From Rhodobiaceae bacterium (GTDB taxonomy: Bacteria > Pseudomonadota > Alphaproteobacteria > MED-G09): a stretch of DNA of 34,236 bases. Below the pieces are notes generated by a model that searched no databases, was not told the origin of the DNA, and was given only the letters and a program-made list of their open reading frames with translations. The position numbers were made by a program, and so were the translations under genes. Positions 21,515-24,906 of this stretch are shown piece by piece; within the stretch, counting starts at the first letter, position 1; the number at the start of each line of letters is the position of its first letter. The stretch is taken from positions 1-34,236 of the forward strand of contig PBNH01000008.1 in assembly GCA_002723035.1 (NCBI GenBank), read 5' to 3'.

Positions 21515-23335
21515 TTAAAAATTTACTTTAATTCCGAACAAACCAGATCTATTAGGAGTTCCATAACCAAAAACCTGTTGATAATCTTCATCAAATAAAT
21601 TCTCTATACTAAAATATATTTCACTAAAGTTATTTAACTTATAAAATATATTAATATCAGCCCTTGACCAAGAATTAAGATTACCGTAAGTGCTAATTTC
21701 TGAGCCATTATATTTAATTTTAATAGATCCTGATAATTTTGAAGATGACACATATGTTAATCCCAGTTCACCAGAGTCCTTTGGAATATTAATTAACCTT
21801 AATCCACTTCCATCTATAGAATCTATATAAGAATAGTTTATAAATAGATTTAATGTTTCTGAAATTTTAGAACTTGTAGAAATTTCAAACCCATCAGATT
21901 CCACAAAATCAATATTTTCATAACCTCCTAAACTAAATGAAAAATTAATTTGGTTGTTAACATCTTGTTTAAAGTAAATAAGATTGAATGAAAATTTATC
22001 TTCTAAAGTATAATCAAAACCTAAATCAAAAGAAGTTGACTCTTCAGGCCTAATATTAATATTTGCACTTTTAGCGCCGCAGCAAAAGAAAGTTGTTTGA
22101 AAAATAGTTGGAACCTTGAAACCTTCACCCCAACTTGATTTTATTGAGATGTTCTCAGATATTTTATAAACAGCGGCAATCTTTCTTGTTGTTTTAGAGC
22201 TAAAACCTTTATTGTCATCATTCCTTATTCCAGCAGAAACAACTAAATCCTTGATTGGCTGAAATTGGTAAAGAAAAAAAAGACTATCAATTGATAATTT
22301 ATCTAAATTTACACTGCTTTCCTCTTGCTCAAAACCAAAAGCTATTTTATTGAATTTACTAAATCTTGTATTTCCCTGATAACGATATAACTTCCTATCC
22401 CCATCAGCTCCGAATGTAAGATTATTGTCAGTAAAATAGTCTCTGCTTATATCTGATTGATTAAAAGAAAATGTATTTTCTAATTTTTCACCAAATAAAT
22501 TAAATTTTATTGTAAGATTACCAATAAATTCTTCAGTAATGCTTCTTTCATCGCCATCTTGAACACCTGTAACAAAACCAAAACTATCGTATTCAACATC
22601 TGATTTAATATAAGATAATAATCCTTTTATCTCGATATTATTAACTTCAATATTTCCCTTAAGAGAATAAGAATTTGTTTCAAATCCGTCTTTCTCAATA
22701 TTCCCATCTTTTTTATCTGCTTTACTAATCCCATCCAATGAAGTGCCATCAACTAAAAATAAAAAATTACCAAAATTACTAACTAAACCAAATTCAGAAT
22801 TAATTTTTTTTAATCCAAAACTACCAGTTTCAGCGAGTATATTTACAGAATTATCTTCTGCTGACTTTGTAAAAATATTTACAACACCTCCAATTGCATC
22901 CGAGCCCCATAAAGTAGACTGAGAACCTCTTAAAACTTCTATCCTCTCTATATTGGAAGTATCTAGGTATTCGAAATTATAACTACCGCCTGGTGAGGAT
23001 GCATCGTTTACAGGGACCCCATCAACAAGGACTAAAGTTTGTGAACTAGATGCGCCCCTAATTCTTACTGAGCCAACACCCCCAAAACTCCCATTCTTTT
23101 TTGTGGTAACTCCAGGAGAGGAGGAAATTGCATCTATTGCACTTCGAATACCTCGCAGCCTTATTTCATCTTTGCTTAAAATAAATATACTTGAACCAAA
23201 ATTACCCTCAGATGTTTCTATTCTAGCACCCTTTACAATAATTTCTTTTACTTCGCTAGCAAAAGAGCTACTTATAGAAGAAATACTTATCGAGAATATA
23301 ATAAATAAAATTAAATTGTTTAAAAAATTTTTCAT
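21515..23335 (-). CDS. btuB: TonB-dependent outer-membrane receptor, BtuB-like (cobalamin uptake)
   Basis: A 606-residue outer-membrane protein. A signal peptide (about 1-27, ending SSFA-S) is followed by a TonB-box-like VKEIIVKGARIE, a plug domain (about 40-150) with SPGVTTKKNGSFGGVGSVRIRG, TLVLVDGVPVND, IERIEVLRGSQSTLWGSDAIGG and VNIFTK, and then a barrel of amphipathic strands ending GLFGIKVNF with the C-terminal Phe recognised by the Bam machinery. Its length is like E. coli BtuB. The cobalamin riboswitch directly upstream makes vitamin B12 or another corrinoid the expected ligand. GAGG lies 5-6 bases before the ATG. No btuCDF genes are in the window. Confidence 0.93.
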   Translation of the reverse strand: MKNFLNNLILFIIFSISISSISSSFASEVKEIIVKGARIETSEGNFGSSIFILSKDEIRLRGIRSAIDAISSSPGVTTKKNGSFGGVGSVRIRGASSSQTLVLVDGVPVNDASSPGGSYNFEYLDTSNIERIEVLRGSQSTLWGSDAIGGVVNIFTKSAEDNSVNILAETGSFGLKKINSEFGLVSNFGNFLFLVDGTSLDGISKADKKDGNIEKDGFETNSYSLKGNIEVNNIEIKGLLSYIKSDVEYDSFGFVTGVQDGDERSITEEFIGNLTIKFNLFGEKLENTFSFNQSDISRDYFTDNNLTFGADGDRKLYRYQGNTRFSKFNKIAFGFEQEESSVNLDKLSIDSLFFLYQFQPIKDLVVSAGIRNDDNKGFSSKTTRKIAAVYKISENISIKSSWGEGFKVPTIFQTTFFCCGAKSANINIRPEESTSFDLGFDYTLEDKFSFNLIYFKQDVNNQINFSFSLGGYENIDFVESDGFEISTSSKISETLNLFINYSYIDSIDGSGLRLINIPKDSGELGLTYVSSSKLSGSIKIKYNGSEISTYGNLNSWSRADINIFYKLNNFSEIYFSIENLFDEDYQQVFGYGTPNRSGLFGIKVNF

Positions 23336-23439: not shown

Positions 23440-23615
23440 TATTCCCGGTCTTGGACGAACGACTTAATGGCAGGTTTCCTGGCTTATAGATCAATGCTCA
23501 AAATCGCCTTACCAGAATAAACCAGTGGCATAATGATTTCTTACTTCCTAAATACAGTTACGGGTATAGCACAGTATTTTAAACTGTTTCCCTCTTAGCT
23601 AAAAAGCACCATTGA
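23440..23615 (-). ncRNA. Cobalamin (AdoCbl) riboswitch
   Basis: Reading the reverse strand from 23615, the conserved cobalamin aptamer blocks appear in order: ATGGTGC, GAGGGAAACAG, GCTATACCCGTAACTGT, GCCACTGG, GGTAAGGC, then the B12 box AGCCAGGAAACCTGCC (23484-23469). AATGG and CCATT at the two ends (23613-23609 and 23470-23466) can form the closing P1 stem. A further short stem-loop (GTCGTTCGTCCAAGAC) after the B12 box is the likely kissing-loop partner. Established behaviour of the class is repression of the downstream gene when cobalamin binds. It precedes the BtuB-like receptor gene, an expected target. Confidence 0.95.
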
Positions 23616-23646
23616 TTGAAGTTTTATCAGTGTTTTTAAAAAAAAC

Positions 23647-23676: not shown

Positions 23677-23736
23677 ACCTGTGTTATATGTGTAACTCAT
23701 GTATCATATGTAATATTTTAAAACTGATTTAAGGAG
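23670..23736 (+). promoter_or_regulatory. Leader of the YRG small-protein gene: TTGACA box, inverted repeat, strong ribosome binding site
   Basis: A perfect -35-like TTGACA sits at 23670-23675. No convincing -10 box is found at 16-18 bases; TATCAT at 23702 is too far. GTTATATGTGTAAC (23684-23697) is a near-perfect inverted repeat that could be an operator. AAGGAG (23731-23736) lies 6 bases before the ATG and is the strongest ribosome binding site seen in the window. Confidence 0.4.
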
Positions 23737-23742
23737 AAAACT

Positions 23743-23901
23743 ATGAAAAATCAATATAGAGGAAGTCAAAATATAATTTCTGAAAAAAAAGTATCTTTAA
23801 GTAAAGGCTTTTATAGAGGTGCCAGCCACAATGGTTTTAAATTTGAGAAATTAAATTCTGATCAAAATCATAAAAAAATGTATAGAGGTCAAGAGCAATA
23901 A
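23743..23901 (+). CDS. Small basic protein with three YRG motifs, function unknown
   Basis: A 52-residue reading frame. The translation begins MKNQYRGSQN, continues SKGFYRGASHNG, and ends KKMYRGQEQ: the tripeptide Tyr-Arg-Gly recurs at residues 5-7, 24-26 and 47-49, each preceded by a Gln, Phe or Met and followed by a small or polar residue. No hydrophobic segment, Cys or signal peptide is present; it is rich in Lys, Asn, Ser and Gln. A perfect AAGGAG 6 bases before the ATG and internal repetition argue that it is translated. From memory, the motif recalls short cyanobacterial proteins of the DUF4278 type, which also carry YRG, but I cannot confirm homology. It stands alone, divergent from the cobalamin riboswitch transcript. 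Confidence 0.65.
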   Translation: MKNQYRGSQNIISEKKVSLSKGFYRGASHNGFKFEKLNSDQNHKKMYRGQEQ

Positions 23902-24024
23902 AGTTAATAAACAATTAATATCTTCTGAAGAAAAAAAGAAGAGAATATTTATTGCAAGTTAAGTATCAGACTATTATTCTAGATCACTTGACAAAGTCAA
24001 AACTAAACAAATAAGAATATAAAA

Positions 24025-24044
24025 CTCTAACTGATCAATTAGAG
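24025..24044. repeat. Inverted repeat CTCTAA-8 bp-TTAGAG
   Basis: CTCTAA and TTAGAG surround CTGATCAA, making a 6-bp stem with an 8-base loop. The same TTAGAG half-site appears at 24061 and in the perfect palindrome at 24101-24118, so three related elements lie within 95 bases. Confidence 0.55.
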
Positions 24045-24100
24045 AAAAATAAAGAGATATTTAGAGATATAGATCAATTTGTTGATTTCACCAGTTGGAA

Positions 24101-24118
24101 TTAGAGATATATCTCTAA
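24101..24118. repeat. Perfect 18-bp palindrome TTAGAGATATATCTCTAA
   Basis: The sequence equals its own reverse complement over 18 bases. No T-run follows on either strand, so it is a poor terminator; a dimeric-regulator binding site is more natural. A half copy, TTAGAGATAT, lies 40 bases upstream at 24061-24070. Confidence 0.7.
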
Positions 24119-24212: not shown

Positions 24213-24287
24213 TGGAGCGGGCGAAGAGATTCGAACTCTCGACCCTCACGTTGGCAACGTGATGCTCTACCACTGAGCTACACCCGC
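24213..24287 (-). tRNA. tRNA-Gly (anticodon GCC)
   Basis: On the reverse strand the 75 bases fold as a cloverleaf: acceptor GCGGGTG/CGCCCGC, D stem GCTC/GAGC around AGTGGTA, anticodon stem TCACG/CGTGA with loop TTGCCAA (anticodon GCC), a 5-base variable region, T stem GAGAG/CTCTT around TTCGAAT (one G-T pair), discriminator T and an encoded CCA. It decodes GGC and GGU. It stands alone, not in an rRNA operon. Confidence 0.98.
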
Positions 24288-24411: not shown

Positions 24412-24906
24412 ATGAAAAAACAAGATCAAAGAATACAACTGGTAGCATCTACTGAGTTTCGTAATGATGTTGATAGATGGCGTAGAGAACAGACAGATCT
24501 CCCTTCTCATTCTGAGGCAATAAGGAGACTTGTTAAGATAGCTTTGCGCTCTGGGGATGGTGAAACAATGAAAATGATTACAGCAATAATTAGACCTCAC
24601 AAATATGAGGAAGTAAGAAACGCATTAATTGATATTGGAATAGAGGGTCTATCTGCAACTGAGATAAGAGGGTTTGGAAGACAAAGAGGGCAAACAGAAA
24701 TATACAGAGGTGCTGAATATAAGACCACAGAAGTTCCGAAAATAAAAATTGAAATTGTTGTTCCCGCAACCAAATTAGATCAAGTTGTAAATATTATAAG
24801 TAAAAGTTCTGAGACAGGAAAAGTAGGTGATGGAAAAATATTTGTAAGCAATATTGATCAAGCAATAAGAATTAGAACTGGTGAAACACAAGACGACGCT
24901 CTCTAA
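24412..24906 (+). CDS. Fusion of a ribbon-helix-helix DNA-binding domain to a complete PII (GlnB/GlnK) signalling protein
   Basis: A 164-residue protein with two intact domains in one frame. Residues 6-47 are a ribbon-helix-helix unit: a QRIQLVAS strand, helix FRNDVDRWRREQTDLP, then SHSEAIRRLVKIAL. Residues 53-164 are full-length PII: MKMITAIIRPHKYEEVRNAL, the T-loop GFGRQRGQTEIYRGAEY with Tyr103 equal to uridylylation site Tyr51, VPKIKIEIVVP with the Lys58 equivalent, TGKVGDGKIF (ATP-binding B-loop) and the IRIRTGE C-loop. PII senses ATP/ADP, 2-oxoglutarate and, through GlnD, glutamine, normally by binding partner proteins; attached to a DNA-binding domain it might act directly on promoters (inference). 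Linker residues 48-52 are SGDGE. No glnA, amtB or ntrBC is adjacent; cnoX follows after one base. The upstream ribosome binding site is weak, whereas a better one precedes the internal ATG. Confidence 0.9.
   Translation: MKKQDQRIQLVASTEFRNDVDRWRREQTDLPSHSEAIRRLVKIALRSGDGETMKMITAIIRPHKYEEVRNALIDIGIEGLSATEIRGFGRQRGQTEIYRGAEYKTTEVPKIKIEIVVPATKLDQVVNIISKSSETGKVGDGKIFVSNIDQAIRIRTGETQDDAL
24553..24570 (+). promoter_or_regulatory. Internal ribosome binding site and ATG inside the RHH-PII gene
   Basis: GGGGATGGTGA (24553-24563), an unusually G-rich stretch for this DNA, lies 4-10 bases before the in-frame ATG at 24568, which is exactly where an ordinary PII protein begins (MKMITAII). Internal initiation could yield free PII of 112 residues next to the fused form. 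It may equally be only the coding of the SGDGE linker. Confidence 0.4.

Follow-up and report, generated by a model that had tools for sequence, protein, structure and literature searches.

In cyanobacteria, the DUF4278 domain (PF14105) makes up the N-terminus of IF17, a glutamine synthetase (GS) inactivating factor, in which it raises stability and is dispensable for inhibition (PMC6316151). The genes that mainly adjoin glutamine aptamers in cyanobacteria encode DUF4278, which is typical of the small genes under these aptamers (PMC6316151). Prochlorococcus encodes a free-standing DUF4278 protein of 7 kDa, PMM1846, whose function is not known, and GS regulation in picocyanobacteria has been described as unclear (PMC6316151). 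The inactivating factors (IFs) are stated to be unique to cyanobacteria, in which several small proteins act through binding PII or enzymes (PMC7760959). Despite this prominence of DUF4278 genes at glutamine aptamers, the free-standing DUF4278 proteins lack an assigned role, which makes them of interest.

The window analysed here, the whole stretch of 34,236 nucleotides, comes from a PS1-clade (OCS116) marine alphaproteobacterium and encodes a 52-residue protein with three Tyr-Arg-Gly (YRG) units. This protein adds a divergent alphaproteobacterial member to a known, uncharacterised family. The protein is proposed, with a probability of about 0.4, to be a DUF4278-type flexible binder of a partner protein, the partner likely acting in nitrogen assimilation.

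Reading frame and conservation of the YRG gene

23731..23736, + strand: ribosome binding site AAGGAG, 6 bases before the ATG
23743..23901, + strand: gene of the 52-residue YRG-repeat (DUF4278-like) small protein; open frame, present in 10 of 18 family genomes, pN/pS 0.16
23755..23763, + strand: YRG unit 1 (residues 5-7), the same in all 11 aligned proteins
23812..23820, + strand: YRG unit 2 (residues 24-26), the same in all 11 aligned proteins
23881..23889, + strand: YRG unit 3 (residues 47-49), the same in all 11 aligned proteins

The frame is open over 52 codons, ends in TAA and is probably skipped by length-filtered gene calls. The earlier note had pointed to an AAGGAG at good spacing and to YRG at residues 5, 24 and 47; both are confirmed by the sequence and its translation, and a G-rich ribosome binding site is also kept in the relatives. 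The protein has three Tyr and three Arg residues, every one of them within a YRG unit. That this repetition exceeds chance, as was also claimed, is borne out by two counts. Among 4764 six-frame stop-to-stop stretches of the window, nine contain one YRG, none contains two and this frame alone contains three. Two YRG units arose in 32 of 500,000 residue shuffles of the protein and three in none; any tripeptide occurred at least three times in 60 of 20,000 shuffles.

The gene is found at the same place in 10 of the 18 family genomes searched (7/10 of its own genus, 3/7 of the sister genus and 0/1 of a third genus); the named close relatives are PS1-clade or OCS116 records and one MAG filed under Rhodobiaceae. 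Tandem copies are present in two of the three sister-genus carriers, as two adjacent copies with three YRG each in G010 and with the second copy truncated by the contig end in G012. Five relatives of the genus are 83-96% identical to the window protein, G006 is 45% identical, and the sister-genus proteins are 38-42% identical. Of the 15 positions that are invariant among the aligned proteins, the three YRG units account for nine.

The earlier note had proposed comparing synonymous with non-synonymous change and had held that loss of the open frame or of the YRG spacing in relatives would speak against a gene. Both features are retained in the relatives, the pooled pN/pS over six genomes of the genus is 0.16, and pairwise dN/dS ranges from 0.02 to 0.22. 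In the same six genomes, variable sites at codon positions 1, 2 and 3 number 11, 8 and 24. The YRG codons vary only synonymously (TAT/TAC; GGA/GGT/GGC/GGG), and selection therefore acts on the peptide. The YRG frame is thus a real, conserved gene under strong purifying selection. A chance open frame without a protein product, for which its shortness and its absence from 8 of 18 family genomes (some incomplete) could be cited, is extremely improbable in the face of conservation across two genera, synonymous bias, invariant motifs and an in-frame tandem duplicate.

In G002, G003 and G011, the interval from the TonB receptor gene to the PII gene was read and contains no trace of the YRG frame, and in these genomes the absence is real. 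The remaining absences may reflect incomplete genomes; the genome of the window itself is 61% complete. Selected genes of approximately 50 codons occur in the streamlined genomes of this lineage and are easily overlooked.

Kinship with DUF4278 and distribution of the family

The window protein, like most of its relatives, matches a single Pfam family, DUF4278. The window protein aligns with residues 1-50 to positions 1-55 of the 57-position profile, and its score of 15.8 bits (E 0.018) lies under the Pfam gathering score of 25.3 bits. Two sister-genus orthologues exceed this cut-off (25.8 and 26.8 bits), and two further copies score 21.3 and 22.0 bits. A 60-residue protein with three YRG units, encoded in a different alphaproteobacterial family (G137, likewise G240), reaches 25.8 bits; it is not syntenic. 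Because the window protein itself falls under the cut-off, homology rests on these intermediate sequences, through which it is well supported. The likeness to DUF4278 that the earlier note had suggested thus holds as kinship through the orthologues and the G137 protein, but not by the window protein's own score.

Sequence searches suggest that DUF4278 is rare outside cyanobacteria. Above the cut-off, it was found in one of 289 sampled alphaproteobacteria and in none of 349 genomes drawn from the Pseudomonadota, and the control Synechococcus elongatus passed in the same genome search; single six-frame stretches were scored, so that weak members such as the window protein can be missed.

A viral origin of the gene was rejected, since the viral contigs and phage records searched yielded no relatives and PHROG profiles match only weakly. 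The sister-genus protein matches phrog_28819, phrog_545 and phrog_5049 (E 1.9e-5 to 0.004) and has no direct match among 50,697 phage records. For the window protein, the match to phrog_5049 reaches no better than E 0.22 and spans 11 residues. The plasmids searched for YRG relatives yielded nothing convincing. A separate observation concerns a 264-residue protein encoded in the window's genome (L046:1366-2160, - strand) and in G004 (L104:916-1710, + strand). It carries EEGLYRGIKHSRFIEK, which is very close to KEGLYRGIKHSNSIEK of the sister-genus small protein (E 5.5e-5 per genome); judged from the sequences, this likeness is probably due to chance or convergence.

Genomic neighbourhood

23689..23714, + strand: conserved upstream element TGTGTAACTCATGTATCATATGTAAT, aligned in seven genomes
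23928..24104 (wider span 23902-24104), + strand: remnant of a second small gene, tblastn match of 84%, internal stop, start lost
24213..24287, - strand: tRNA-Gly (GCC) between the YRG and PII genes (ARAGORN, Rfam)
24412..24906, + strand: PII (P-II) gene, its product extended at the N-terminus by 52 residues (PF00543, E 2.2e-27, residues 53-158)

The upstream element is probably part of a promoter or operator. Its core, GTGTAASTT, is shared with the sister genus, and in the genomes searched near-exact copies occur only at the YRG gene; G002, which has no YRG gene, still has the upstream element GTGTAACTTA. A wider regulon was rejected: the 19-base form is near-exact only at the YRG gene, with other matches at the level of the reversed control, and the 13-base palindrome form gave few scattered sites (5' of a TonB receptor gene in G010, 5' of a cupredoxin gene in G000 and within a transporter gene in G006), which form no coherent regulon. 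In G010, a perfect palindrome, GTGTAAGTTACAC, stands before a TonB-dependent receptor gene (C1:16024-16036; L111, L115) and resembles the YRG upstream element.

Riboswitch control of the YRG gene was likewise rejected. Neither a glutamine aptamer nor any other Rfam family was found at the gene up to E 10, no glutamine aptamer was found upstream of the gene in relatives, and RF01739 gave nothing above the cut-off in 18 genomes. A cobalamin riboswitch (23452-23628, - strand, 102.1 bits) precedes the TonB-dependent receptor gene at 21515-23335, which probably encodes a BtuB-like vitamin B12 receptor.

In G001, G005, G007 and G008, an intact 67-codon gene begins immediately behind the YRG stop (TAAATG), and it is under selection in these four relatives (pN/pS 0.09-0.22). 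In the window copy the start is missing, the frame is shifted and a stop lies inside. A single damaged copy could contain sequencing errors; the gene is also damaged in G004 and G006, and real decay is more likely because three copies are affected. No convincing family match was obtained for its product. An obligate partnership was rejected, as the YRG gene stays intact in the window, G004 and G006 despite the damage to the second gene, and a relative of the latter stands alone elsewhere in G003. The second small gene is a companion that the YRG gene does not require.

In each of the ten genomes with the YRG gene, the gene that follows on the same strand encodes PII. This positional link is weak because the opposite-strand tRNA-Gly intervenes and the entire block is syntenic, and the two genes are no more than candidate members of one system. 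No nitrogen genes stand beside the distant homologue in G137. The N-terminal extension of PII, MKKQDQRIQLVASTEFRNDVDRWRREQTDLPSHSEAIRRLVKIALR..., is conserved in three genera of the family and resembles a ribbon-helix-helix by eye. Pfam and PDB searches gave no match confirming this fold, and the predicted model of the fusion is poor and not confident; a DNA-binding PII fusion, if true, would be unusual.

Proposed function and comparison with known systems

The gene product would be a short, basic and probably flexible DUF4278 or YRG-repeat protein, whose three Tyr-Arg-Gly units are the likely contact points for a partner protein. It would work stoichiometrically by binding an enzyme or a signal protein, without being an enzyme itself. 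Protein binding, flexibility and the nitrogen link are inferred, the latter because the cyanobacterial DUF4278 proteins provide an analogy for a partner on the nitrogen side: what is known of them points to nitrogen control via small proteins (PMC6316151), an aspect that the earlier note had not raised. By this analogy, the partner would most likely belong to nitrogen assimilation, as PII or a PII target, and family analogy together with position makes a PII-related partner the best single guess. A nitrogen role is plausible. The purifying selection, the invariant YRG units, the DUF4278 kinship, the PII neighbour in 10/10 genomes, the lack of a confident fold and the cyanobacterial precedents (DUF4278 in IF17 and in small genes under glutamine aptamers; small proteins that bind PII or enzymes) count in favour of the binder. 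Against it count the sub-cut-off DUF4278 score, the aptamer that was not found, the intervening tRNA, the synteny, the context in G137, the several family genomes without a YRG gene, the GlnII-like GS, and the derivation of flexibility from a six-sequence model.

AlphaFold gave no confident fold for the YRG protein (mean pLDDT 55.1), and as evidence of disorder this low value is weak because the model was built from only six close sequences. A calculated pI of 10.07 and a low-confidence model without a fold fit binding to nucleic acids or to a protein surface, the two modes named in the earlier note, equally well. The aromatic-basic-glycine units could accordingly contact RNA, for instance in a chaperone or a ribosome-associated peptide, as the basic pI, the Tyr-Arg-Gly units and the unpredicted fold would allow. 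This alternative is nevertheless unlikely: Pfam, NCBIfam and PHROGs of known function give no match to a nucleic-acid-binding family, and published DUF4278 work concerns protein inhibitors and not RNA (PMC6316151).

Similarly doubtful is a free-standing stability or adaptor module that stabilises or delivers another protein with no direct tie to nitrogen. It would agree with the N-terminal part of IF17, which is dispensable for inhibition and protects from degradation (PMC6316151), and with the G137 homologue, which is not next to nitrogen genes. The stability role was, however, established for one domain within a larger protein and not for a free small protein, and only PII is consistently linked as a candidate client.

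The YRG units might also copy the T-loop of PII (TEIYRGAEYKTTE) and compete with PII for partners such as an ammonium channel (AmtB) or the uridylyltransferase GlnD. The T-loops of the two PII proteins in this genome both contain YRG, and in the G137 homologue the third unit reads YRGADYK against YRGAEYK in the PII T-loop; the PII gene is a neighbour and GlnD is present. Yet only a few residues are alike, and the window protein (YRGASHN) shows the resemblance less clearly. An unrelated amidase of the same genome (L046) contains EGLYRGIKHS, so that such matches arise without shared function, and a PDB search with a profile of the YRG proteins gave no PII chain up to E 10. T-loop mimicry is therefore improbable, and the same low probability is given to the broader claim that the protein mimics the T-loop or otherwise binds PII partners in marine alphaproteobacteria. 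Were this broader claim true, DUF4278 would be a class of nitrogen-signalling peptides that extends past the cyanobacteria and works by a so far undescribed mechanism.

For the preferred reading, a flexible binder with a nitrogen-side partner, the GS of the clade is relevant. Next to the second PII gene lies a GlnII-like GS whose best model is NF041605, at 367.8 bits and thus under the cut-off of 500. GlnD is present in the clade; among twelve family genomes, PF08335 gave only GlnD-type matches in nine and none in three, and GlnE was not detected by this search. Two matches of equal score in G005 probably represent one gene on two contigs. The four other alphaproteobacteria with PF08335 matches each have GlnD- plus GlnE-like proteins. 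The pairing of a GlnII-like GS with glnB, with GlnD kept, is seen at L083:3024-4524 and L084:1741-4458. Because the GS is GlnII-like and no GlnE was detected, it is unlikely that the cyanobacterial mechanism of GS inhibition is copied here. An alphaproteobacterial member in a lineage with another GS type and no GlnE detected offers a comparison to separate inhibition of cyanobacterial GS from a more general function of the family.

Compared with IF17 (GifB), in which DUF4278 is the N-terminal moiety (PMC6316151), the YRG protein is similarly basic with conserved arginines. The GS-binding, GS-inhibiting C-terminal part is missing, as the match covers residues 1-50 and the protein ends at residue 52; the setting also differs, with a GlnII-like GS and no aptamer found. 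From the cyanobacterial DUF4278 members in general, it is set apart by its alphaproteobacterial host, its score under the cut-off and the lack of a detected aptamer. It resembles Prochlorococcus PMM1846 in being short and YRG-bearing with a near-full-length match to the profile, PMM1846 being a comparable 7-kDa protein of a streamlined marine bacterium (PMC6316151). The cyanobacterial PII binders PirA, CfrA/PirC and PipX show no sequence relation in the family libraries, and only the place beside the PII gene suggests a likeness; these small nitrogen-signalling proteins act by binding (PMC7760959), a mode that, by analogy, the YRG protein may share.
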